Shown piece after piece: positions 14,908 to 44,855 of a stretch of 64,000 nucleotides of DNA. The position numbers and the translations under genes were made by a program. The first letter of the stretch is position 1. Every line of letters starts with the position of its first letter. Origin of the DNA: Sphingomicrobium nitratireducens (GTDB lineage Bacteria > Pseudomonadota > Alphaproteobacteria > Sphingomonadales > Sphingomonadaceae); assembly GCF_026157035.1 (NCBI RefSeq), contig NZ_JANJZA010000001.1:1839001-1903000 (forward strand), read 5' to 3'. The notes beneath the pieces were generated by a model that was not told the DNA's origin, ran no database searches, and saw only the letters and a list, made by a program, of their open reading frames with translations.

Positions 14908-16920
14908 ATGGCGGATATTTTCCTTTCTTATGCAAGGCCCGACCAGCCGGTCGTCGAGGAACTCGCGGCCGCGCTCGAGCAAGCGGGCTTTTCGGTCTGG
15001 TGGGATCGCCAGCTGACCGGCGGCCACGACTTCTCCGACGATATCGAGCACGAGATCGAGGCCGCCCAAACCGTGCTCGTCGCCTGGTCCGAGCATTCGG
15101 TGAAAAGCCACTGGGTGCGCGACGAGGCCGCCTTCGGGCGCGACCATCACAAGCTGCTGCCGATCCAGATCGACGACAGCCTGCCCCCGATGGGATACCG
15201 CCAGCTCCACACGATCGACTATCGCGAGGGGAACCGCGGGGCCGGCCTCGCCGCGCTCGTCAGCGCGGTCTCGATGCGCCTCGACAGGGACGAGCCCCCC
15301 TCACCGCCGCCCGCGCCCGTCCCCGTAGCCCCCGCCAAGCGCCTGTCGAAGAAATGGCTTGCGGGCATCGCCGCAGCATTGCTCCTCGTTCTCGCGGGAG
15401 TCGCCGCGTTCCAGGGCGGCTACATCCCGGGCGCCCAGAGCGAGCAGGCGCAGTCCCTCAGCCTCGCCGTCACCCCCTTCACCTCGCCCGGCGATGAAGA
15501 CCTCTCCACCGTCGGCGAACGTATGGCCGCGACCGTCGCCAGCCGCCTGTCCGACCTGCCCGGCCTGACGCTCGCTTCGACCAATTCGGTCAACGCCGCG
15601 GTCCGCGCGGGCGCCACCGCGCGCAAGCTAGGCACCGACATGGGCGTCACCCACGTCCTCGAGGGCCAACTGCTTCCCGTCGGCGACGACATGCTCCAGC
15701 TCGACCTCGCCCTGATCGACGCCGCCAGCGGCAAGCGGGTGTGGACCAAGACCATCGAGGAACGCCGCGCGCTTCCCGAAGAACTGGCGCAGCAGTCCGC
15801 ACAGGCCGCCGGCATCGCGCTCCAGATCCGCCAGGGCGTCGGCTTCGGCGGCTCCCCGCTGCCTGCCGACATCCCGGCCAAGGCGCGCGACCCCTATCTT
15901 TCCGGAATGGCGAGGCTTGCCGAGCGAAGCGATCTGGAATCGCGCGCCGCCGCCTATCGCGACTTCGTGCGCGCGGCCGAACTCGCCCCCGACTTTGCCC
16001 CCGCTCATGCCGGCGCCGCCTACATCCTCTCGCTCTCGGATTCCGACACGTTCGGCTTCGACGACGAGCGACGCAAGAGTGCCTTTCACGAGCATCTCGA
16101 CCGCGCGCTCGAACTCGACCCCGACAATATCATGGCACGCGCCGCCGCCTCACAGGGCGCGGCGCGGATCGATTACGACTTTGCGAAATCCGTCGAGATT
16201 GGCGAGGCATTATTGGCCGACGCGCCCGACGACGGTCTGGTCAACTACAAGATGTTCCAGATCGCACAGGTCCGGGGCGATCTCGCCAGTAGCCGCGCCT
16301 ATATCGAGCGCGCCGTTGCCCGCGATCCGCTCAACCCCCTCTTGAGAACGGCACGGGCCAACGTACTCATGGAAACGGGCAATCTGGAGCTGCTCGGCGC
16401 AGTGATCCGCGAATGCGACATGTGCCGCACCAACAACCAGTTCAGGCTCATCTCCATTCTTGCCCACGGCTCGCAGGACAATATCGACAGGAGTTGGGAC
16501 AAGCTCGATACTTATTTCAGGAGGGACGGCACCCCTCCCGAAATCCTTGCGCAAGCGCGCAGTGCGCTGGAGGCCTATGTCGCCAACCGCAAGCAACCGC
16601 TGCCCCCGTTCATGGACCGGCAGAACAACGCGAACAAGGTGGTCTTCCAGTCGAGGCTGGTGGGGATCGACGCCGCGCTGGACACGCTTGCCGAGGTCGT
16701 CGAGGCGAACCCGGACGAGCTGACGATGCTGCTGACCGACATGCGCACCGCGTTCCCGCCCGAAGCGCGCGCCGATCCGCGCTACCACAAGATCCTCGAG
16801 GATCCGTGGATCGCGATGTTGGTCAACGCCCGCCGCGAGAACGGCGTCATGGGCGGACTTCCCCTCGCCCCCGAGGAAGTCGAGGCCGAAAAGGCCCGGC
16901 TCGCGAAGCTGCGCCGCTGA
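14908..16920 (+). CDS. TIR-domain membrane protein with TolB-like and TPR-like periplasmic region (paralogue 1)
   Basis: 670 residues. Residues 1 to about 125 form a bacterial TIR domain ('FLSYARPDQP', 'GFSVWWDRQLTGGHDF', 'VLVAWSEHSVKSHWVRDEA') in which Glu73 is the candidate NAD-cleaving residue. A proline-rich linker leads to one membrane helix at 150-168. Beyond it, about 183-310 resembles the TolB-like domain of CadC- and adenylate-cyclase-type sensors ('VTPFTSPGDEDLSTVGERMA', 'HVLEGQLLPVGDDM'), and the remainder is TPR-like helical repeats ending in a conserved 'ARADPRYHKIL' block. The TIR part should be cytoplasmic and the repeats periplasmic. The next gene is a full-length paralogue overlapping by one base. 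No sequence for a Thoeris effector (ThsA) is nearby. Role unknown; a membrane stress sensor is a guess. Confidence 0.85.
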   Translation: MADIFLSYARPDQPVVEELAAALEQAGFSVWWDRQLTGGHDFSDDIEHEIEAAQTVLVAWSEHSVKSHWVRDEAAFGRDHHKLLPIQIDDSLPPMGYRQLHTIDYREGNRGAGLAALVSAVSMRLDRDEPPSPPPAPVPVAPAKRLSKKWLAGIAAALLLVLAGVAAFQGGYIPGAQSEQAQSLSLAVTPFTSPGDEDLSTVGERMAATVASRLSDLPGLTLASTNSVNAAVRAGATARKLGTDMGVTHVLEGQLLPVGDDMLQLDLALIDAASGKRVWTKTIEERRALPEELAQQSAQAAGIALQIRQGVGFGGSPLPADIPAKARDPYLSGMARLAERSDLESRAAAYRDFVRAAELAPDFAPAHAGAAYILSLSDSDTFGFDDERRKSAFHEHLDRALELDPDNIMARAAASQGAARIDYDFAKSVEIGEALLADAPDDGLVNYKMFQIAQVRGDLASSRAYIERAVARDPLNPLLRTARANVLMETGNLELLGAVIRECDMCRTNNQFRLISILAHGSQDNIDRSWDKLDTYFRRDGTPPEILAQARSALEAYVANRKQPLPPFMDRQNNANKVVFQSRLVGIDAALDTLAEVVEANPDELTMLLTDMRTAFPPEARADPRYHKILEDPWIAMLVNARRENGVMGGLPLAPEEVEAEKARLAKLRR

Positions 16921-36455: not shown

Positions 36456-36549
36456 CGTTTCTGACGACACCCTCATCAACCTTTTTGAAGGGTTTGCCGC
36501 TTATTTACCCAATAGATTTCCGATGAATTCGAACGGGGATGGGTTAGGC

Positions 36550-38085
36550 ATGAACGCTTTCGGTAACCGCAACGGCATGGGCGGCAAGGGCCAGCGCAAG
36601 AGCTTCGGCGTCGCGCGTCCGATGCAGGGCGCGCCGTCGAATCCCGCCCGCGAACAGCACGCGCCCGACGGTGGCGGCGAGCAGTTCCCCCCGCTCGACG
36701 AGCTCGAACAGGCCGGCACCGAAATCCCTGCGCCCAAGCCGCAGGGCGGCAGCCTGTCCGCGATGGACAAGCTCAACCAGCGCATGAACGACGAGGGCGG
36801 CAAGGAAGACAAGGCCGAGGGCTTCGAAGCCAGCGTCAACAAGATCAAGGACCAGGTCCTGCCCCGCCTGCTCGAGCGCGTCGACCCGGAAGCCGCCGCA
36901 ACGCTCGGCAAGGACGAGCTGGCCGAGGAATTCCGCCCGATCATCTCCGAGGTGCTCGCAGAGCTCAAGATCACGCTGAACCGCCGCGAACAGTTCGCGC
37001 TGGAAAAGGTGCTGGTCGACGAACTGCTCGGCCTCGGCCCGCTCGAGGAACTGCTCGCCGATCCGGCGGTCAGCGACATCATGGTCAACGGCCCCGACCA
37101 GACCTTCGTCGAGCGCAAGGGCAAGCTCGAACTGTCCAAGATCCAGTTCCGCGACGAGGAGCACCTGTTCCAGATCGCGCAGCGCATCGTGAACCAGGTC
37201 GGCCGCCGCGTCGACCAGACCACGCCGCTGGCCGACGCCCGCCTCAAGGACGGCAGCCGCGTCAACGTCATCATCCCGCCGCTGTCTCTCAAGGGCACGG
37301 CGATCTCGATCCGTAAGTTCTCCGACAAGCCGATCACCGTCGACATGATGCGCGGGTTCGGCTCGATGTCGGAAAAGATGGCGACGTGCCTCAAGATCGC
37401 GGGCGCGAGCCGCATGAACATCGTCATCTCGGGCGGTACCGGTTCGGGTAAGACGACGATGCTCAACGCCCTGTCGAAGATGATCGACCCGGGCGAGCGC
37501 GTGATCACGATCGAAGACGCGGCCGAACTTCGCCTGCAGCAGCCGCACTGGCTGCCGCTGGAAACCCGCCCTGCCAACCTCGAGGGCCAGGGCGCGATCT
37601 CGATCCGCGACCTCGTCATCAACGCGCTGCGTATGCGTCCCGACCGCATCATCCTGGGCGAAATTCGCGGACAGGAGTGTTTCGACCTCCTCGCTGCGAT
37701 GAACACGGGCCACGACGGCTCGATGGCCACGCTCCACTCCAACTCCCCGCGCGAATGTCTGGCGCGTATGGAGAACATGGTCATGATGGGCGACATCAAG
37801 ATCCCGAAGGAGGCGATCAGCCGTCAGATCGCGGATTCGGTCGACCTCATCGTCCAGGTGAAGCGTCTTCGCGACGGTTCGCGCCGTACCACCAACATCA
37901 CAGAGGTGATCGGGATGGAAGGCGACGTCATCGTGACGCAGGAACTGTTCAAGTTCGAGTATCACGACGAGACTCCCGACGGGAAGATCATCGGCGAGTA
38001 TGCCTCGATGGGCCTTCGCCCCTACACGCTCGACAAGGCCAAGCAGTTCGGCTTCGACCAGCCCTATCTCGAGGCCTGCCTCTAG
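36550..38085 (+). CDS. cpaF: CpaF/TadA-type secretion ATPase
   Basis: 511 residues. Hexameric motor of Flp/tad pilus assembly. ATG 36550 was chosen for its G-rich ribosome site; an ATG nine codons upstream has none. The N-terminal 110 residues are polar and low-complexity. The core has 'LGLGPLEELLADPAVSDIMVNG', Walker A 'GGTGSGKTTML', the Asp box 'ITIEDAAEL', Walker B 'RPDRIILGEIRG' and the His box 'TGHDGSMATLHSNSPRE'. No other pilus gene (cpaB, C, E, tadB, C) is adjacent, so it works with a distant cluster. Downstream is an imperfect hairpin at 38097-38119 without a T tract. Confidence 0.95.
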   Translation: MNAFGNRNGMGGKGQRKSFGVARPMQGAPSNPAREQHAPDGGGEQFPPLDELEQAGTEIPAPKPQGGSLSAMDKLNQRMNDEGGKEDKAEGFEASVNKIKDQVLPRLLERVDPEAAATLGKDELAEEFRPIISEVLAELKITLNRREQFALEKVLVDELLGLGPLEELLADPAVSDIMVNGPDQTFVERKGKLELSKIQFRDEEHLFQIAQRIVNQVGRRVDQTTPLADARLKDGSRVNVIIPPLSLKGTAISIRKFSDKPITVDMMRGFGSMSEKMATCLKIAGASRMNIVISGGTGSGKTTMLNALSKMIDPGERVITIEDAAELRLQQPHWLPLETRPANLEGQGAISIRDLVINALRMRPDRIILGEIRGQECFDLLAAMNTGHDGSMATLHSNSPRECLARMENMVMMGDIKIPKEAISRQIADSVDLIVQVKRLRDGSRRTTNITEVIGMEGDVIVTQELFKFEYHDETPDGKIIGEYASMGLRPYTLDKAKQFGFDQPYLEACL

Positions 38086-38190
38086 GGTTCCCGGGCGGGC
38101 GAAGGCGTCGCTTTCGCCCTCCACCCCCTTGCGTCCGTCGGCTGCGCCCTTCATGCAGGGCGCAACGATGTTGTTGCGGGGCCTTTCACC

Positions 38191-38973
38191 ATGCGTCTGT
38201 TCCTGATTGCGCTGGCCGGTTTGACGGCGTGCGCGGATGCGCCCGTGCGGGCCGAGCCCGTCACGCTCCAGGCAGCGATCGCGTCTCCCGTCCGCAGCGC
38301 GGCCAACCGCGCCCGTGACACACAGCGCCATCCTGCGCAAACGCTCGCCTTTTTCGGCGTCGAGCCCGACGACCGGGTCGTCGAACTGTGGCCGGGCGGC
38401 GGGTGGTACACCGAAATCCTTGCCCCCTATCTCGCCGATGCCGGTGAACTGGTGCTGGTGTCGAGCGAGGGCGGGCTCGGACCCGCGCGCGCCAAGGCGG
38501 GCGCCGACCCGGCGACCTACGGCAAGGTAAGGTTCGCGTCCCTCCCCGCTCCCGGCGGCGACGCGGGGCTCGGCGGAACTGTCGACGTGGTGCTGACCTT
38601 TCGCAACACGCACAGCTGGCTCAATGCCGAGCCGCCCCACGCGGCCGCGATGTTCGCCTCGGCTTTTGCCATGCTCAAGCCCGGCGGCACGCTCGGCCTC
38701 GTCCAGCACCGCCTGCCCGAGAACGGCGCGGCCGCTCTCGAAGGTCGCTCGGGGTACGTGAAGCAATCGACCGTCATCGCGCTGGCACAGGCTGCCGGTT
38801 TCGAGTTGGTCGAGACCAGCGAGATCAACGCCAATCCCAACGATAGCGCCGACCATCCCAACGGGGTGTGGACGCTGCCGCCGCGGCTCGACGCGTTCGA
38901 GGGCGAGCGCGCGCACTACCTCGCGATCGGCGAGAGCGATCGCATGACCCTCAAGTTCCGCAAGCCGGACTAG
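38191..38973 (+). CDS. Class I SAM-dependent methyltransferase with a signal peptide (COG4798-like)
   Basis: 260 residues. It starts with a 21-residue signal peptide ('MRLFLIALAGLTACADAPV'; the Cys at 14 might be a lipobox variant). The methyltransferase fold has motif I 'VVELWPGGGWYTEIL' and a Gly-rich acidic loop, then 'VVLTFRNTHSW' and 'LKPGGTLGLVQH'. The combination of an export signal with a SAM-using fold is unexpected, because SAM is cytoplasmic. COG4798 proteins with this feature are known but uncharacterised. It starts a run of genes: the acyl-adenylating enzyme begins ten bases after its stop. Confidence 0.85.
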   Translation: MRLFLIALAGLTACADAPVRAEPVTLQAAIASPVRSAANRARDTQRHPAQTLAFFGVEPDDRVVELWPGGGWYTEILAPYLADAGELVLVSSEGGLGPARAKAGADPATYGKVRFASLPAPGGDAGLGGTVDVVLTFRNTHSWLNAEPPHAAAMFASAFAMLKPGGTLGLVQHRLPENGAAALEGRSGYVKQSTVIALAQAAGFELVETSEINANPNDSADHPNGVWTLPPRLDAFEGERAHYLAIGESDRMTLKFRKPD

Positions 38974-38983
38974 GGAAAGAAGA

Positions 38984-40453
38984 ATGGGGGCGGACATCGA
39001 ACGCGACTGGGACACGCTGGCACAGGCGATCGGTCGGCACGAAGATGCGCGCGTCGCGGTGCGGTTGCCCGGAGGGGCGATCGACTTAGCTCGCTTTCGC
39101 GCCGACATCGCCGCGACGACGAGCTGGCTGCGCCGGCAGGGGGTCGGGCCGGGTAAGCGGGTCGCGGTGGGGTTTCCCGCCGACGGGCGCACGATGGCCT
39201 ACCAGGACTGGCTGCTCCTGCTGGGGACGATCCTTTCGGGCGCGCGGCACACCAGCGTCGGCGACCCCGCGACCTACCATGCGCTGGCCGAAAGCGGGCC
39301 GATCGATGCCGCCGTCGGCGACCTGCCGCCCGACGCGAAAGACCCGATCGGGTTCGCGATGTCGATGCTCGAGGATCACCGCGACGCGACGTGGCCGCCC
39401 GATCCGGGCCTCGAGACGGAGGCGGTGCGGATCAACCTTACCTCGGGCACGACCGGGCGCGCGAAGCTGGTCGAGTGGGACCACGCCATGCTGTGCGGCC
39501 GGATCGCCCAGCTGCTCGGCGACGTTGGACCCGACGACGTCCTCGTCTCGCAGCTTCTCCCGCGCACCACCGCGGGCTTTCGCTATCCGCTCGCCGTGTG
39601 GGCGGCGGGTGGCACGGTCGCGCTGGCGGACGAGAACCGCCAGCCGGTGATCGCCAATGAGGCGACGGTTTCGGTGATGTCGCCGGTGCAACTGCGCAAC
39701 ATCGTCAATCAGGGCGCGCGGGTCGTCGACCCGGGCAACCGGCGCATCCTGCTGTTTGGCGGTCGCCTGCCGCGCCAGGTCGGCGCGCTCGCCACCCGGC
39801 GGCTCGCCCATGACGTGCGTATCCACTACGGTTCGACCGAAACCGGCAACATCTCTTCGGGCGCGGCGCAATTCACCGCGCGGCATCCCGGCGCGGTGGG
39901 CCACGTCCGCGAGGGCGTGACGGTCGAGATCGTCGACCCGGCCGGCAACCCCGTCCCGCCCGGCACGATCGGATCGCTGCGCGCGAAGACCCCGTTGATG
40001 GTCGAAGGCTATGCCGCACGCCCCGACGACACGTCGCAGGGCAGTTTCCGCGACGGCTGGTTCCAGCCGGGCGACCTTGCCATCCTCTTCGAGGACGGGC
40101 TGCTCGCCATCGAGGGCCGCGCGAGCGACACCCTCAACGTCGGCGGCTGGAAGCTCAACGCGCCCGACGCCGAGGAACGGCTTGCCGAGATCGAGGGCGT
40201 CGAGGACGCGGCCTGCGTCGTGCTCCAGCTGCCGGGCGGCGACCGGCTCGGCGTGGCCGCGATCGCCGAGGGTCCCGAGACGATGAAGAAGGTGCGCGCG
40301 GTGATCGCCCAGATCGCGCCGAAGACCGTGCCGACCATGTTCGTGCGCGTGACACATTTGCCACGCAACGCGATGGGAAAGCTGCCAAGGCTTCAAATCG
40401 CGCAACAAATGACACAGACTTTTCTTAATCAACGTTCTAAAGGTTCAGTATGA
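38984..40453 (+). CDS. ANL-superfamily acid-CoA ligase / acyl-adenylating enzyme
   Basis: 489 residues. All core ANL motifs are present: the phosphate loop 'TSGTTGRAK' at 153-161, 'YGSTETG' at 282-288, 'WFQPGDLA', the hinge 'GRASDTLNVGGWKLNAP' and the C-terminal catalytic Lys466 in 'NAMGKLPR'. It should activate a carboxylic acid as acyl-AMP and probably transfer it to CoA. The N-terminal domain is short compared with fatty-acyl-CoA ligases. The stop overlaps the next start (ATGA at 40450). Its neighbours are a dehydrogenase and a hydrolase-ALDH fusion, pointing to a dedicated acid pathway. Substrate unknown. Confidence 0.88.
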   Translation: MGADIERDWDTLAQAIGRHEDARVAVRLPGGAIDLARFRADIAATTSWLRRQGVGPGKRVAVGFPADGRTMAYQDWLLLLGTILSGARHTSVGDPATYHALAESGPIDAAVGDLPPDAKDPIGFAMSMLEDHRDATWPPDPGLETEAVRINLTSGTTGRAKLVEWDHAMLCGRIAQLLGDVGPDDVLVSQLLPRTTAGFRYPLAVWAAGGTVALADENRQPVIANEATVSVMSPVQLRNIVNQGARVVDPGNRRILLFGGRLPRQVGALATRRLAHDVRIHYGSTETGNISSGAAQFTARHPGAVGHVREGVTVEIVDPAGNPVPPGTIGSLRAKTPLMVEGYAARPDDTSQGSFRDGWFQPGDLAILFEDGLLAIEGRASDTLNVGGWKLNAPDAEERLAEIEGVEDAACVVLQLPGGDRLGVAAIAEGPETMKKVRAVIAQIAPKTVPTMFVRVTHLPRNAMGKLPRLQIAQQMTQTFLNQRSKGSV

Positions 40454-41631
40454 CGAGTGCGTCCACCCTTCTCGAGGCCGGCGATGAGAAATTGGCCATG
40501 ATGCCCGCGCCGCGGCTCTCCGAAACGCTCGAACGGCCAATTCCGGCGTTCGACCCGACCGCGACCCATCACATCGGCATGTTCCTCGGCGAGGGCGTGG
40601 GCCCCGAAGTCGTGCCGGTGGCGATGCGGATGCTGGAAATCCTGTCGCGCAACAGCCATCGCCGGTTCGACATTCACGAGGGCGGCCTCATCGGCCTGCC
40701 CGCCAAGCTCAAGCACGGCTCGAGCCTGTCGGACGAGGCGATCGACTTCGCCAAGGACGTTTTCGCACGTAATGGCGCACTGTTCTGCGGCCCGGGCGGC
40801 GACCGCTTCGTCTACGAGACGCGCCGCGAATTCGACCTGTACTGCAAGTTCACCCCGCTCGAGCCGCAGCCCGCCCTCAAGGGCGCGGGCGTGGTCCGCG
40901 ACGAAACCGTCGCCAAGACCGACATCATCGCGGTGCGCGAGCAGAAGGGCGGCATCTACCAGGGCCAGTGGGACGAGGAAGACGGCCAGGGCGGCCGGAT
41001 CGCGACCCACAAATTCTCCTATCTCGAGCACGACGTGGTACGCATCCTGGGCGTCGCGATGCGGCTTGCCAACACGCGACGCAAGAAAGTCCACCTCGTC
41101 ACCAAGCCGGGCGGCATCCCCTCGATCAGCGGCATGTGGAAGCGCTGCGCGCAGGAGATGGCCGAGGCCGCAGGCGTCGAGCTGATCGAGTTCGAGATCG
41201 ACAATGCGGTCTACCAGCTGGTTGCCAACCCGGGCCAGTTCGACGTGCTCGTCTCGCCCAACATGTTCGGCGACGTGCTGGCCGATTGCGGCTCGCTGCT
41301 GCTCGCTTCGCGCGGGCTGTCCTATTCGGGCAACTTCAACGATGCCGGCCAGGCGGTCTACCAGACCGGCCACGGCGCGGCGCGCGACATTGCCGGCCAG
41401 GGCATCGCCAACCCGTCGGGGCAGATTCTCTCGCTCGGCATGATGCTGCGCGAAAGCTTCTCGTGGGGCCAGGCCGATGCGGCGCTCCGCGCGGCGCTCG
41501 CGGCGACGCTCGAGGAAGGCTATCGCACCTCCGATGTCACGACGTCGGGCTGCCAGACGGTCGGGACGCAGGCCTTCTCGGACCGGGTCGCCTATCATCT
41601 CGAACGCGTGATCGACGACGCGGGACTGTAG
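40450..41631 (+). CDS. Isocitrate/isopropylmalate dehydrogenase-like enzyme
   Basis: 393 residues of the beta-decarboxylating dehydrogenase family. Recognisable parts are 'GMFLGEGVGPEVVPVAM' (start of the nucleotide fold), the substrate Arg in 'YETRREFDLYCKF', the Tyr in 'GGIYQGQWD', the catalytic Lys in 'HLVTKPGGIPS', and the metal-binding block 'DNAVYQLV' with 'FDVLVSPNMFGDVLADCG'. 'HGAARDIAGQGIANPSGQ' shapes the cofactor site. It is clearly distinct from leuB and icd, so the substrate is likely a different 2-hydroxy acid. The start overlaps the ligase gene by four bases; the fusion gene follows nine bases after the stop. Confidence 0.86.
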   Translation: MTSASTLLEAGDEKLAMMPAPRLSETLERPIPAFDPTATHHIGMFLGEGVGPEVVPVAMRMLEILSRNSHRRFDIHEGGLIGLPAKLKHGSSLSDEAIDFAKDVFARNGALFCGPGGDRFVYETRREFDLYCKFTPLEPQPALKGAGVVRDETVAKTDIIAVREQKGGIYQGQWDEEDGQGGRIATHKFSYLEHDVVRILGVAMRLANTRRKKVHLVTKPGGIPSISGMWKRCAQEMAEAAGVELIEFEIDNAVYQLVANPGQFDVLVSPNMFGDVLADCGSLLLASRGLSYSGNFNDAGQAVYQTGHGAARDIAGQGIANPSGQILSLGMMLRESFSWGQADAALRAALAATLEEGYRTSDVTTSGCQTVGTQAFSDRVAYHLERVIDDAGL

Positions 41632-41640
41632 GCGCGGCGC

Positions 41641-43536
41641 GTGGGCGACACGCCGCTGCTCCTGCTGGTCGACTGCCAGGAAGATTTTTTCGCGCGGAGC
41701 GGGCTGGAGCCCGAGCGCACGGCACTGGCCGCGAAAATTGCTCGGTTGCTTGGAGCGGCGCGCACGAAAGGCTGGCCGATCGCCCACGTCCATACGCGCG
41801 TGTCCGCGGACGGGAGCGACGCGATGCCGCACCGCCGCGATCCGGCGCGGCGCGAGGTGGTCGAGGGGACGCCCGGCGCCCTGCCCATTCCCGAAGCCGC
41901 GCCGCGCGAGGGCGAACCCGTCTTCATCAAGCACTTCTTTTCCGCGTTCGACGCGCCGGGACTGGCCGAGCATCTGGGCAAGGCCGCGCCGGGCCCGCTG
42001 CTGATCGCCGGCGTGCACAGCCATGCCTGCATCCGCGAGAGCGCGACCGACGCCTACGCGGCGGGCCACGACGTGGTGATCGTTTCCGATGCCGTGGGAA
42101 GCGACGATCCCGCACACGGCCGAAGTGCGCTTGCCTGGCTTGACGGGCGCGCGGCACGCATGGCGACCATCGACGAGGTTGTCGGGACCGGGAGCGGTCC
42201 CCTCGCCCATCACGATCCGTGCGATCGAGCGCGGGTCCTCTTCGACCTGGAGGACGACGATGCGCCGACGATCGCGCGCAAGGTCGCCGCGTTGCGGGAC
42301 ACTCAGGCCGACTGGGCCGGGCTATCGATCGAGGAGCGCAAGCGGCGGCTGGCCGGGGGCATCGAGACCATCGAGGCGGCCCGGGACGCCCTGATCGCGC
42401 TGCTGGTCGAGGATCTGGGCAAGCCGATCGCCGACGCGGAGGGCGAATTCGGCTACGGGCAGAGACTTTCCCGCCACGTCATCGACACCGCCGAGGACCG
42501 CGAATTGGCGGGCATTGCCGAGGTCGCCTATCGCCCGCACGGGCTGGTCGGACTGATCACGCCGTGGAACAACCCGTTCGCGATACCGCTCGCCAAGCTG
42601 CTCGCGGCGCTCGTCTACGGCAACTCGGCGATCTGGAAGCCCGCCCCGCCCGCGCTGCGCCTGTCGCGCCGCATGGCCGAATTGCTGCGCGCCAGCCGTG
42701 CGCCGTTCGAGCTGGTCGCGGGCGACGCGCAGGCGGGTCGCATCATCGCGCGAGAGGTCGATGCACTCTCCTTCACCGGCTCGGACCGGGTCGGGCGCCA
42801 ACTCGCTGCCGAGGGCGCCGCGCGCGGCATGCCGGTACAGGCCGAAATGGGCGGCAGCAACGCCGCCATCATTGACCGCGACGCCGATCTCGACGCCGCG
42901 GCGCATGACCTCGCGGTCGCCATGTTTAGCTACGCCGGCCAACGCTGCACCGCGATCCGGAGGCTGATCGTCCACGAGGACGTGGCCAGCGCCTTTTCGA
43001 CCAAGCTGGCCGCGGCGATGGAGCGGCTCAAGGTGGGGCGTCCCGAGGAACGAGAGACGCAACTGGGCCCGATGATCGATCCTGCATCGCGCCGCCGGAT
43101 CGAAGGCGCGCTGCAAGAGGCGCGCGATGCCGGCGCGCGGCTAACACGGTCCAGCCTTTCCGATGGTCATGACGGTGGCTGCTGGCTTGCACCGACATTG
43201 GTCGAGGGGCTTGCGGGCGATCACCCGCTGGGCCTTCGCGAATGGTTCGGCCCGATCGCGTTCCTGTCGACCTTTGCGACCTTCGACGAAGCCCTGGCGC
43301 TGCACGATGCCGGTCCATTCGGGCTCGTCGGCGTCTATTACGGGTTCAACGAGGCGGCACGCGAGCGTTTCCTTGCGCAGGCGCAGGCAGGGATGCTCTC
43401 GCTTGGAGAGGCGCGGCCCGCCTTCGACCCGGCCGCGCCCTTCTGCGGATGGGGACATTCTGGCTGGGGTCCGCCCGAACATGGTCGCTGGGACCGCGAC
43501 TTCTTTACCCGCCCGCAGGCGCGCTATGGACGATAA
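41641..43536 (+). CDS. Fusion of isochorismatase-family hydrolase and aldehyde dehydrogenase
   Basis: 631 residues from a GTG start. Residues 1 to about 180 are an isochorismatase-like cysteine hydrolase with the full triad Asp11 ('LVDCQEDF'), Lys97 ('FIKHFF') and Cys130 ('GVHSHACIRES'). A short linker leads to an aldehyde dehydrogenase (about 205-631) with Asn at 310-311 ('PWNNPF'), Lys333 ('IWKPAPP'), 'SFTGSDRVGR', Glu402 ('EMGGSN') and the catalytic Cys436 ('AGQRCTA'). Both halves appear active and the reading frame is continuous, so this is a true fusion. Such a pair could cleave an amide or enol ether and oxidise the aldehyde released. It overlaps the downstream dksA-like gene by 11 bases. 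Confidence 0.88.
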   Translation: MGDTPLLLLVDCQEDFFARSGLEPERTALAAKIARLLGAARTKGWPIAHVHTRVSADGSDAMPHRRDPARREVVEGTPGALPIPEAAPREGEPVFIKHFFSAFDAPGLAEHLGKAAPGPLLIAGVHSHACIRESATDAYAAGHDVVIVSDAVGSDDPAHGRSALAWLDGRAARMATIDEVVGTGSGPLAHHDPCDRARVLFDLEDDDAPTIARKVAALRDTQADWAGLSIEERKRRLAGGIETIEAARDALIALLVEDLGKPIADAEGEFGYGQRLSRHVIDTAEDRELAGIAEVAYRPHGLVGLITPWNNPFAIPLAKLLAALVYGNSAIWKPAPPALRLSRRMAELLRASRAPFELVAGDAQAGRIIAREVDALSFTGSDRVGRQLAAEGAARGMPVQAEMGGSNAAIIDRDADLDAAAHDLAVAMFSYAGQRCTAIRRLIVHEDVASAFSTKLAAAMERLKVGRPEERETQLGPMIDPASRRRIEGALQEARDAGARLTRSSLSDGHDGGCWLAPTLVEGLAGDHPLGLREWFGPIAFLSTFATFDEALALHDAGPFGLVGVYYGFNEAARERFLAQAQAGMLSLGEARPAFDPAAPFCGWGHSGWGPPEHGRWDRDFFTRPQARYGR

Positions 43537-43864
43537 GGCGGCCCGCAAGGCGCTCGAGACGCAACTGGCAGCGCTGGAGGACGAGGAGGCGCTGGGCGAG
43601 AGCGACCGCGCGACGGTCGAGCTCGACCAGGAATCGGTTGGACGCCTGTCGCGCATGGACGCGCTCCAGGTGCAGGCGATGGCGCAGGCCCAGTCGCGCC
43701 GCCGCGCCGTACAGAAGGACCGTATCCGCGCCGCGCTCGCGCGGATCGACGAGGGCGAATTCGGGTACTGCCTCGCGTGCGGCGAGGAGATCGCCGCCAA
43801 GCGGCTAGAGAATGACCCCAGCGTCACCCATTGCATCGGCTGCGCGGGAAATCAGGGAACCTGA
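43526..43864 (+). CDS. DksA/TraR-type C4 zinc-finger protein
   Basis: 112 residues. An N-terminal coiled-coil-like section ('LETQLAALEDEEALGES', 'RRRAVQKDRIRAALARIDEG') precedes the zinc knuckle 'YCLACGEEI' and 'HCIGCAGN'. This is the fold that inserts into the RNA polymerase secondary channel. The coil-tip acidic pair of DksA is not obvious, so it may be a TraR-like variant. Its start lies inside the end of the fusion gene, so expression follows that operon. It might adjust transcription when the pathway's substrate is present, which is speculative. Confidence 0.88.
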   Translation: MDDKAARKALETQLAALEDEEALGESDRATVELDQESVGRLSRMDALQVQAMAQAQSRRRAVQKDRIRAALARIDEGEFGYCLACGEEIAAKRLENDPSVTHCIGCAGNQGT

Positions 43865-43916
43865 AGACGCCTCCGGCCCTTTTGTTCGAAAGAACGCAAG
43901 TTACGGGGACGCAACG

Positions 43917-44294
43917 TTGAACGACCATTCAGAGGATAAGGGCCGCATCCTCGTCGTCGAGGACAGCCCGGTCCTTTCTCTTCGCGCGGAAGACATCCTG
44001 ACCGACCGGGGCTTTTTCATCGTCGGGCCGGCGTACGACATGATGCAGGCGATCGACCTTGCCAAGCGCGAGCAGATCGACGCGGCGGTGATCGACCTCA
44101 ACATTCGCGGCGAGAAGAGTTTCGACGTCATGAAGACGCTCGAGGAGCGCGGCGTACCGTTCGTCATCACCAGCGGCTATGCCGACTGGTCGATGCCCGA
44201 GGAATGGCGCGAACGCCCGCGGTTGCAAAAGCCGTTCGAGGACGATGCGCTGGCCGGCGCGGTGCGCGACCTGTTGCGGTCCGAGGACGACTAA
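43917..44294 (+). CDS. Single-domain response regulator (receiver only)
   Basis: 125 residues from a TTG start with GGGGAC upstream; an in-frame ATG at 43812 lies inside the dksA-like gene and would add 35 non-receiver residues. The receiver has an acidic pair in 'VVEDSP', the phospho-acceptor Asp60 in 'AAVIDLNIRG', Ser in 'VITSGYAD' and Lys in 'LQKPF'. No output domain follows, as for CpdR- or SdrG-type regulators. 'PFVITSGYA' is near the PFxFATGY pattern of alphaproteobacterial stress receivers. No histidine kinase is adjacent. Confidence 0.82.
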   Translation: MNDHSEDKGRILVVEDSPVLSLRAEDILTDRGFFIVGPAYDMMQAIDLAKREQIDAAVIDLNIRGEKSFDVMKTLEERGVPFVITSGYADWSMPEEWRERPRLQKPFEDDALAGAVRDLLRSEDD

Positions 44295-44316
44295 TTCTCT
44301 GAGATCAGGGAGGAAA

Positions 44317-44391
44317 TGGTGGGCGTGGCAAGGATTGAACTTGCGACCCCTACGATGTCAACATAGTGCTCTACCACTGAGCTACACGCCC
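44317..44391 (-). tRNA. tRNA-Val (anticodon GAC)
   Basis: The minus strand folds into a full cloverleaf: a GGGCGTG/CACGCCC acceptor stem, GCTC/GAGC D stem, a CTATG/CGTAG anticodon stem with loop TTGACAT (anticodon GAC), and GCAAG/CTTGC T stem with TTCAATC loop. A discriminator A and an encoded CCA end follow. It reads Val codons GUC and GUU. Confidence 0.95.
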
Positions 44392-44477
44392 ACATTTCCT
44401 CGCGCGCGGCAGCGATATGCCGCGGTGGTGTGGGGGCCTTTAAGGCCCGAATCATCGCTTGCCAAGCCCAAACTCGC

Positions 44478-44855
44478 CTAAAGGCGGCCGTGCTGGTCTT
44501 CGGTCTGGAAAATCCGGTCGACCTCGGCAACGAGGTCCTTGAGGTGGAACGGCTTGGAAAGCAGTTTCGCCTCGGGCGCGGCCTTGCCGCCCTGCAGTGC
44601 GACGGCCGCAAATCCGGTGATGAACATGACGCGGATCGAGGCGTCGATGGTGCTCGCCTTCTGCGCCAGCTCGATCCCGTCCATTTCGGGCATGACGATG
44701 TCCGTGAGGAGGAGGTCGTAGCGCTGCTTCTCGAGGAGCGGGAGCGCCTCGGTACCGCAGCCCACGCTGTCGACTTCATAACCGACGCGTTCCAGCGCCC
44801 GCGCGAGATATTCGCGCATCGAGTGGTCGTCTTCTGCCAGCAGGATCTTCGCCAT
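44478..44855 (-). CDS. cpdR: CpdR, single-domain cell-cycle response regulator
   Basis: 125 residues, receiver only. Acidic residues in 'LLAEDDHSMREYLARAL', phospho-acceptor Asp52 in 'LLLTDIVMPEMDGIEL', Thr in 'MFITGFA' and Lys in 'LLSKPFHLKDLV' match CpdR. In Caulobacter unphosphorylated CpdR guides ClpXP to degrade CtrA and other proteins, with phosphate coming from CckA through ChpT. Those partners are not in this window. It lies upstream of and reads into the tRNA-Val region. Confidence 0.9.
   Translation of the reverse strand: MAKILLAEDDHSMREYLARALERVGYEVDSVGCGTEALPLLEKQRYDLLLTDIVMPEMDGIELAQKASTIDASIRVMFITGFAAVALQGGKAAPEAKLLSKPFHLKDLVAEVDRIFQTEDQHGRL

Follow-up and report, generated by a model that had tools for sequence, protein, structure and literature searches.

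We analysed a 64,000-nt stretch of DNA (the window) from Sphingomicrobium nitratireducens (assembly GCF_026157035.1, genome size 2.27 Mb; contig NZ_JANJZA010000001.1, positions 1,839,001-1,903,000 of the forward strand). Five open reading frames (ORFs) lie on its + strand at 38191-43864 (Table 1), and their coordinates confirm the spacings of +10, -4, +9 and -11 bases given in the initial annotation of this DNA. The genes encode, in order, an exported-type putative methyltransferase-like protein, an AMP-forming (ANL) ligase, a LeuB-like beta-decarboxylating dehydrogenase (hereafter IDH), a fusion of an isochorismatase-like hydrolase with an aldehyde dehydrogenase, ALDH (the fusion hereafter FUS), and a zinc-finger protein. 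The ligase and IDH genes overlap by 4 bases, and the start of the zinc-finger gene (43526) falls within a longer ORF running from 43163. A scan of positions 37900-44600 for sigma-70-type promoters found none, which is uninformative because only 0.3 would be expected in shuffled sequences.

Table 1. Features of the IDH-FUS locus and its flanks, in window coordinates
Feature	Position	Strand	Evidence
TadA/VirB11-type ATPase, bounding the variable slot on the left	36523..38085	+	T2SSE, 207.7 bits
Putative methyltransferase-like protein of exported type; neighbour in this locus, outside the core	38191..38973	+	no Pfam/NCBIfam match
AMP-forming (ANL) ligase, stand-alone	38984..40453	+	PF00501, 90.9 bits (cut-off 29.9)
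IDH, LeuB-derived beta-decarboxylating dehydrogenase, cassette core	40450..41631	+	PF00180, 225.1 bits (cut-off 27)
IDH substrate loop, altered (residues 114-136; Lys133 present, Arg missing at 135)	40789..40857	+	alignment
IDH Gln305-Thr306, replacing Glu/Asp-Pro/Ala of the cofactor loop	41362..41367	+	alignment
FUS, isochorismatase-like cysteine hydrolase-aldehyde dehydrogenase, core, GTG start, 631 aa	41641..43536	+	Pfam
FUS isochorismatase-like domain, Asp11-Lys97-Cys130	41656..42174	+	PF00857, 113.7 bits (cut-off 27)
FUS aldehyde dehydrogenase domain, Asn310-Glu402-Cys436	42208..43515	+	PF00171, 313.4 bits (cut-off 23)
C4 zinc-finger protein of DksA/TraR type; neighbour in this locus, outside the core	43526..43864	+	PF01258, 38.3 bits (cut-off 24.9)
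tRNA-Val(gac), bounding the variable slot on the right	44317..44391	-	ARAGORN

The initial annotation treated all five genes as the unit. We found that the conserved unit is instead the IDH-FUS pair with a variable ligase, no ligase having been found close to the core in three of the 14 loci. IDH and FUS are neighbours in every one of the 14 loci found (the window, G176, G199, G201, G297, L028-L032 and L086-L089; G and L numbers denote compared genomes and loci), which span three phyla: Pseudomonadota, Planctomycetota and that of a Syntrophaceae metagenome-assembled genome (MAG). FUS adjoins IDH in all nine loci outside the window that the IDH query returned, and IDH adjoins FUS in all four new loci that the FUS query returned from 392 Planctomycetota genomes. 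In the genus sample the same 4 of 61 genomes carry both (the FUS profile match in G201 covers the ALDH part, and the whole fusion is shown by the neighbourhood). The two genes often overlap by 4 bases; in L087 they are divergent, on opposite strands, with an oxygenase gene between them. Their sequence distances are correlated as well, with a Mantel r of 0.75 (none of 20000 permutations as high), and of 0.57 for the eight loci outside the genus (90 of 20000 permutations).

Outside the window genome, the search for close relatives of IDH gave none among the 148 genomes sampled from the family (E <= 1e-80), three among 60 from the genus (E about 1e-158 or better) and one among 295 from the order (E <= 1e-60; a fourth relative, from the same genus). 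The class and phylum samples gave 0 of 384 (E <= 1e-70) and 0 of 397 (E <= 1e-85), and the FUS profile matched 5 of the 392 Planctomycetota genomes (one of them the source of a query row), in scans that scored the best few candidates per genome, so that the rarity is an estimate. The class of the Syntrophaceae MAG gave 0 of 154 other genomes (E <= 1e-85). These genome samples overlap one another. Twelve further genomes of the genus hold only 29-36% identical matches, nine on the LeuB side and three of isocitrate dehydrogenase type. A scan of contigs, one genome per species, with the single IDH protein gave no match; with a five-row alignment it gave eight loci, three of them copies of known loci (L025-L027) and five new, from Methylohalomonas lacus and from Planctomycetales, alphaproteobacterial, Syntrophaceae and Phycisphaeraceae MAGs. 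Named cassette relatives include Sphingomonas alba, S. rhizophila and the MAG CAN_BIN37.

Some copies are broken, both on MAG contigs. The ligase gene of G176 is interrupted, as two open frames (L018 and L027 are the same CAN_BIN37 contig), and in the alphaproteobacterial MAG (L030:1815-4936) IDH and FUS are each split into two frames, at a coverage of about 2 where error and decay are indistinguishable. We rejected a plasmid or phage origin of IDH: the 693 plasmid and 22 phage matching records are all below 60% identity (31-37% among the matches listed). FUS on plasmids was likewise rejected, as all 1688 matching records are below 60% identity; three cover at least 80% in one place, and for the listed one of these three the identity is 30.7% and the annotation gives two distinct genes. 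No relative was found on viral contigs.

A separate dehydrogenase clade and a two-domain fusion

The initial annotation had set the dehydrogenase apart from leuB, icd and tartrate dehydrogenase, and both profile models and phylogeny bear this out. IDH scores 201.9 bits against the leuB model TIGR00169 (cut-off 353.2) and 129.9 bits against the tartrate dehydrogenase model TIGR02089 (cut-off 470.4), and it lies under the cut-off of every NCBIfam model scored, the icd models included. In a 52-row IQ-TREE phylogeny a branch supported at 100/100 divides the 13 cassette IDH proteins from the other rows, and the clades of TTC (tartrate/D-malate dehydrogenase, 100/98) and icd (100/100) stand apart. 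The cassette clade joins the tree on the LeuB side, possibly inside the LeuB clade, a placement that by the initial annotation would make a dedicated new pathway unlikely; a tree in which LeuB is a single clade without the cassette IDH is not rejected (p-AU 0.382) and appears among the bootstrap trees at a rate of 24%. In an earlier 48-row tree, which lacks L086-L089, the cassette clade has a stem of 2.44 changes per column; these four loci are in the 52-row tree and in the residue tables, and L030 is excluded from tables and trees for its split reading frames. Tree labels were verified on ten rows, the others being labelled by search or position only. Of the ten, L005, L034, L035 and L076, on the LeuB side, exceed the leuB cut-off (426-516 bits), L038 exceeds the TTC cut-off, and L048 and L014 exceed isocitrate dehydrogenase models; L046 exceeds the 3-isopropylmalate dehydrogenase model PRK03437, yet stands beside TTC in the tree, L036 exceeds no model, and no model matches L057 at E <= 1e-100.

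The catalytic residues of IDH are intact, as had been read from the window alone. All 13 cassette members keep R125, R163, Y170, K219, D251, D275 and D279, that is, the superfamily's catalytic Tyr170-Lys219, its metal-binding Asp residues and the outer two substrate Arg residues, which they share, along with the fold, with LeuB (PF00180/TIGR00169). Twelve of the 13 also share the cofactor-site Asp313 with LeuB; G199 has Ala there. The differences from LeuB are equally constant. Position 135, the Arg of NLRP in LeuB and the middle substrate Arg, is T, N, V or S in all 13 members, whereas the 39 comparison rows have Arg at 135 (34 rows) or at 134 (five icd rows). K133, Q305 and T306 are present in 13 of 13 cassette members, and K133 and Q305-T306 in none of the comparison rows; Gln-Thr takes the place of the Glu-Pro of LeuB, and a KPGGIP-type motif that of its KANVL. 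From their spacing on a strand, Lys133 may stand in for the absent middle Arg. An AlphaFold model of IDH built from eight sequences (predicted local distance difference test score, pLDDT, 78.6; predicted template modelling score, pTM, 0.84; pLDDT below 50 at residues 1-18, 167-169 and 309-318) has 3-isopropylmalate dehydrogenases as its nearest solved folds, with TM scores up to 0.80 by query length.

IDH could, alternatively, be a divergent leucine-pathway LeuB (or a tartrate or isocitrate dehydrogenase) with incidental neighbours, as its nearest relatives in fold and sequence are 3-isopropylmalate dehydrogenases and its clade joins the tree on the LeuB side. The window genome, however, has two PF00180 genes at E <= 1e-20, IDH and its own NADP-dependent isocitrate dehydrogenase (L048; 770.4 bits, cut-off 335), and no LeuC over the cut-off of 560.25 bits (the best match, in a frame of 918 aa, reaches 107.3; the search covered neither LeuA nor LeuD). 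As neither a leuB nor a leuC passes its cut-off there, IDH is hardly the leucine enzyme of this genome. Moreover, the Methylohalomonas and Syntrophaceae carriers own a separate LeuB over the cut-off (L034, L035), the middle Arg is absent in 13 of 13 members, and IDH is below all model cut-offs. We thus rejected an orphan LeuB identity of IDH, and the alternative as a whole appears very improbable.

In four of the five cassette carriers leuC is represented by a weak match only, in a long, aconitase-sized frame, and in the fifth, an incomplete MAG, there is none; 45 of the 61 genomes of the genus have no match to the cassette IDH at E <= 1e-20. Many members of the genus may thus be leucine auxotrophs. 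The planctomycete locus L089 holds a second Iso_dh-family gene (15018-16634, 197.9 bits) about 3 kb from the cassette IDH, on the other strand.

FUS passes the Pfam cut-offs for an isochorismatase-like hydrolase and for an aldehyde dehydrogenase, and all 13 aligned members keep both domains with D11-K97-C130 and N310-E402-C436, in agreement with the intact catalytic residues noted initially. The best solved matches of the first domain are the isochorismatase-family hydrolases 3hu5 and 3eef. It has the Asp-Lys-Cys triad of the isochorismatase-like cysteine hydrolases (the group of N-carbamoylsarcosine amidase, biuret hydrolase and nicotinamidase) and differs from them in being joined to an ALDH. 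The nearest solved relatives of the second domain are aldehyde and semialdehyde dehydrogenases, the best named ones being 2-aminomuconate 6-semialdehyde dehydrogenases. It shares the fold and the Asn-Lys-Glu-Cys catalytic set with the semialdehyde dehydrogenases of the ALDH superfamily, from which FUS is set apart by its N-terminal hydrolase domain and by scores under the NCBIfam cut-offs: its best named models, for alpha-ketoglutaric and succinic semialdehyde dehydrogenases, give 205-210 bits, where the cut-offs are 521 and 770. The conserved residues and solved relatives support two working sites and no particular substrate for either. The model of FUS has a pLDDT of 84.1 and a pTM of 0.65, the latter leaving the arrangement of the domains unsure. 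PutA, as FUS probably does, combines two activities, one of them an ALDH, in a single polypeptide. So does the ALDH fusion enzyme PaaZ (PMC6739347); the partner in FUS is an isochorismatase-like hydrolase.

A variable ligase and a possible biosynthetic module

An ANL ligase or adenylation (A) domain adjoins the IDH-FUS core in 11 of the 14 loci. Four aligned ligases, that of the window included, share the motifs SGTT, YGSTE, GD and a C-terminal GK without variation, and all four have the catalytic K466 expected of the ANL family. By Pfam, the window ligase has no PP-binding carrier domain. Ligases with a carrier domain occur in L029, L031, L032 and L087, where the A and carrier domains are followed by a thioesterase (L032), by a condensation domain, a second carrier and a thioesterase (L087), or by a Lip_A_acyltransferase-like (LpxL-like) domain (L031 by Pfam; L029 has a similar stretch only). 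The L028 ligase is a 366-aa form without the C-terminal domain. RalA and the atromentin synthetases are nonribosomal peptide synthetase (NRPS)-like enzymes of adenylation-thiolation-thioesterase layout. The L032 ligase resembles them in its arrangement of A domain, peptidyl carrier protein (PCP) and thioesterase, whereas the window ligase has neither carrier nor thioesterase, and the cassette ligases differ from such enzymes in being linked to IDH and FUS. Alignment places Ala, Ser and Ala (L031, L029 and L032, respectively) at what we take to be the position of the adenylation code whose Asp holds the alpha-amino group. This replacement disfavours alpha-amino acid substrates; we name no adenylation substrate, because the other code positions differ between loci.

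Oxygenase genes also adjoin the core. A PhyH-like oxygenase does so in L029, L086 and L087; that of L087 passes Pfam (23.8 bits, cut-off 22), those of L029 and L086 were assigned by alignment, at 42-43% identity to its first row, and H-x-D...H is kept in all three. In L088 the adjoining gene encodes a Rieske oxygenase. Together, the carrier, thioesterase and condensation domains and the oxygenases lean, short of proof, to biosynthesis.

The adenylation-carrier proteins with an LpxL-like end (L031:6236-8959 and L029:3434-6271) have an odd ending for an NRPS-like protein. Decoration of a surface glycan or lipid, with a small acid attached by the acyltransferase to lipopolysaccharide, capsule or lipid, would suit this ending. 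It would also fit the epimerase-family and cytidylyltransferase genes that follow the L031 cassette (HldD- and KdsB-like by our own reading), the glycosyltransferase and UDP-glucose/GDP-mannose dehydrogenase genes near the L028 cassette, and a glycosyltransferase gene in the G201 slot described below. The HX4D/E motif of LpxL is nevertheless not visible in the LpxL-like stretch of either L031 or L029, and the scanned neighbours of L019 and L021 include no glycan gene; we regard decoration as unlikely.

The three cassette genes probably form a metabolic pathway. As the initial annotation had supposed, we found no description of a ligase-IDH-FUS set, in a full-text literature search that is thin on subscription journals. 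In the reading that we prefer, with confidence evenly balanced, the cassette would be a rare, scattered module of specialised metabolism, made of two constant proteins and a variable acid-activating partner, and moved or repeatedly lost as a unit. IDH would catalyse the NAD-dependent oxidation of a 2-hydroxy acid bearing a 3-carboxylate, with release of CO2, on a substrate other than isopropylmalate, isocitrate or tartrate, since the middle carboxylate-binding Arg is gone and the Lys two residues earlier may replace it. The Asp-Lys-Cys site of FUS would remove an amide, ureido or related group, and its ALDH site would turn an aldehyde into an acid, with both sites probably acting on one intermediate. 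Adenylation of the acid so formed, and its transfer to CoA or a carrier, would fall to the stand-alone ligase in Sphingomonas and to A-PCP-acyltransferase, A-PCP-thioesterase or NRPS proteins elsewhere; in some Planctomycetota the PhyH-like Fe/2-oxoglutarate oxygenase could install the hydroxyl first. The chemistry proposed initially (activation of an acid, oxidation of a hydroxy acid, cleavage of a substrate and oxidation of the aldehyde by the same polypeptide) is plausible as a proposal. A more speculative variant, to which we give little weight, is that IDH decarboxylates a hydroxy acid bound as a thioester to a carrier or CoA and hands the intermediate to FUS acting as an amidase-aldehyde dehydrogenase. 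This would explain the loss of the middle carboxylate-binding Arg, and to our knowledge a LeuB-family enzyme acting on a tethered substrate would be new.

Several points weigh against the module as proposed. Its function and substrates are predictions from sequence. With the window ligase and three distant ones as tblastn queries, no ligase was found within 20 kb around L086, L088 and L089. The window ligase is 25-29% identical, over parts, to those of L029, L031, L032 and L087, and has no tblastn match to that of L028. With no ligase found near the core in three loci and the ligase slot so varied, acid activation may not belong to the core. Cofactor or metal handling, and not a new substrate, could lie behind the altered residues of IDH, and the cofactor loop is a low-confidence part of the IDH model (residues 309-318). 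The rarity, as said, is an estimate, and no recurring transporter was seen among the neighbours scanned (not all were), which also counts against the following alternative.

The direction could be catabolic, or one of salvage, rather than biosynthetic: an environmental acid bearing an amide or ureido group would be hydrolysed, oxidised, decarboxylated and made into a CoA ester that enters central metabolism, the A-PCP forms being later exaptations. Isochorismatase-like and ALDH enzymes are commonly degradative, the best models and solved relatives of the FUS ALDH act on semialdehydes (alpha-ketoglutaric, succinic and 2-aminomuconate 6-semialdehyde), and the ligase of Sphingomonas is stand-alone. 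A degradative role is, however, at odds with the thioesterase, acyltransferase-like or condensation domains that Pfam finds in three of the four carrier-bearing loci (with a similar stretch in the fourth), which point to biosynthesis, and with the rare and scattered distribution; we hold it to be a minority possibility, somewhat doubtful as matters stand.

Joint inheritance in three phyla indicates that this small, well-bounded set of enzymes works together; further members can be sought by Lys133, Gln305-Thr306, the absent middle Arg and the isochorismatase::ALDH fusion. Should the proposed chemistry prove right, the isopropylmalate/isocitrate dehydrogenase family would gain a new class of substrate, FUS would be a new two-step fusion enzyme, and a metabolite of which the literature search found no report would be indicated in Sphingomonas and Planctomycetota.

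Flanking genes and the chromosomal slot

The first gene of the window locus has no Pfam or NCBIfam match at E <= 0.001, and its naming as a putative methyltransferase comes from a stretch resembling an S-adenosylmethionine motif. By tblastn, its homologues occur in only two of the 13 other loci, L018 (G176; 55% identical, on a contig of 7449 bases) and L020 (G201; 58%). Homologues of the zinc-finger gene and of the neighbouring response-regulator gene occur in L020 alone. Co-occurrence, which the initial annotation proposed as a check on the five genes, therefore stands for IDH and FUS and fails for the outer two. The protein described there as DksA-like does belong to the C4 zinc-finger family (zf-dskA_traR); as DksA itself it falls short, with 45.9 bits against a cut-off of 115.5 for the DksA equivalog TIGR02420.

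In the window, the slot between tadA and tRNA-Val(gac) holds the first gene, the ligase, IDH, FUS, the zinc-finger gene and the response-regulator gene. Homologues of tadA, 85-92% identical, are present in G176, G199 and G201, beside atp genes in the latter two. The G201 slot (L020) has the same gene set, flanked on either side by several kb of other genes, and tRNA-Val(gac) at the corresponding place. G199 has a cassette-free site (L093), where tRNA-Val(gac) is present, the slot is occupied by genes for a hydrolase and for both cytochrome bd oxidase subunits, and none of the six window slot genes has a match; its cassette sits elsewhere. In G297 the cassette adjoins tRNA-Cys, and a cassette-free site was not found in the part of that genome covered. 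With G199 and G297 carrying it at other sites, the cassette changes place within the genus.

The variability of this slot, including the unrelated content at the G199 site, would suit a chance neighbourhood of three unrelated enzymes. For IDH and FUS this is contradicted by their adjoining in 14 of 14 loci across three phyla and at different places, by the frequent 4-base overlaps and by the correlated divergence, and we give chance next to no credence; for the first gene and the zinc-finger gene it is still possible. Both appear from these comparisons to be passengers of a locally variable slot, and their membership in a unit with the core is not supported.

Two minor observations concern other neighbours. 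The G201 slot also carries, on the strand opposite to the cassette (L020:12345-15985), genes for a calcineurin-like phosphoesterase, a glycosyltransferase and a thiolase/KAS III-like protein. In two Sphingomonas loci, genes for a PCu(A)C copper chaperone and SCO1/SenC adjoin the cassette (L019:6059-7117 and L021:12702-13852), upstream of it in one and downstream in the other, possibly reflecting a link to copper or a shared insertion spot.

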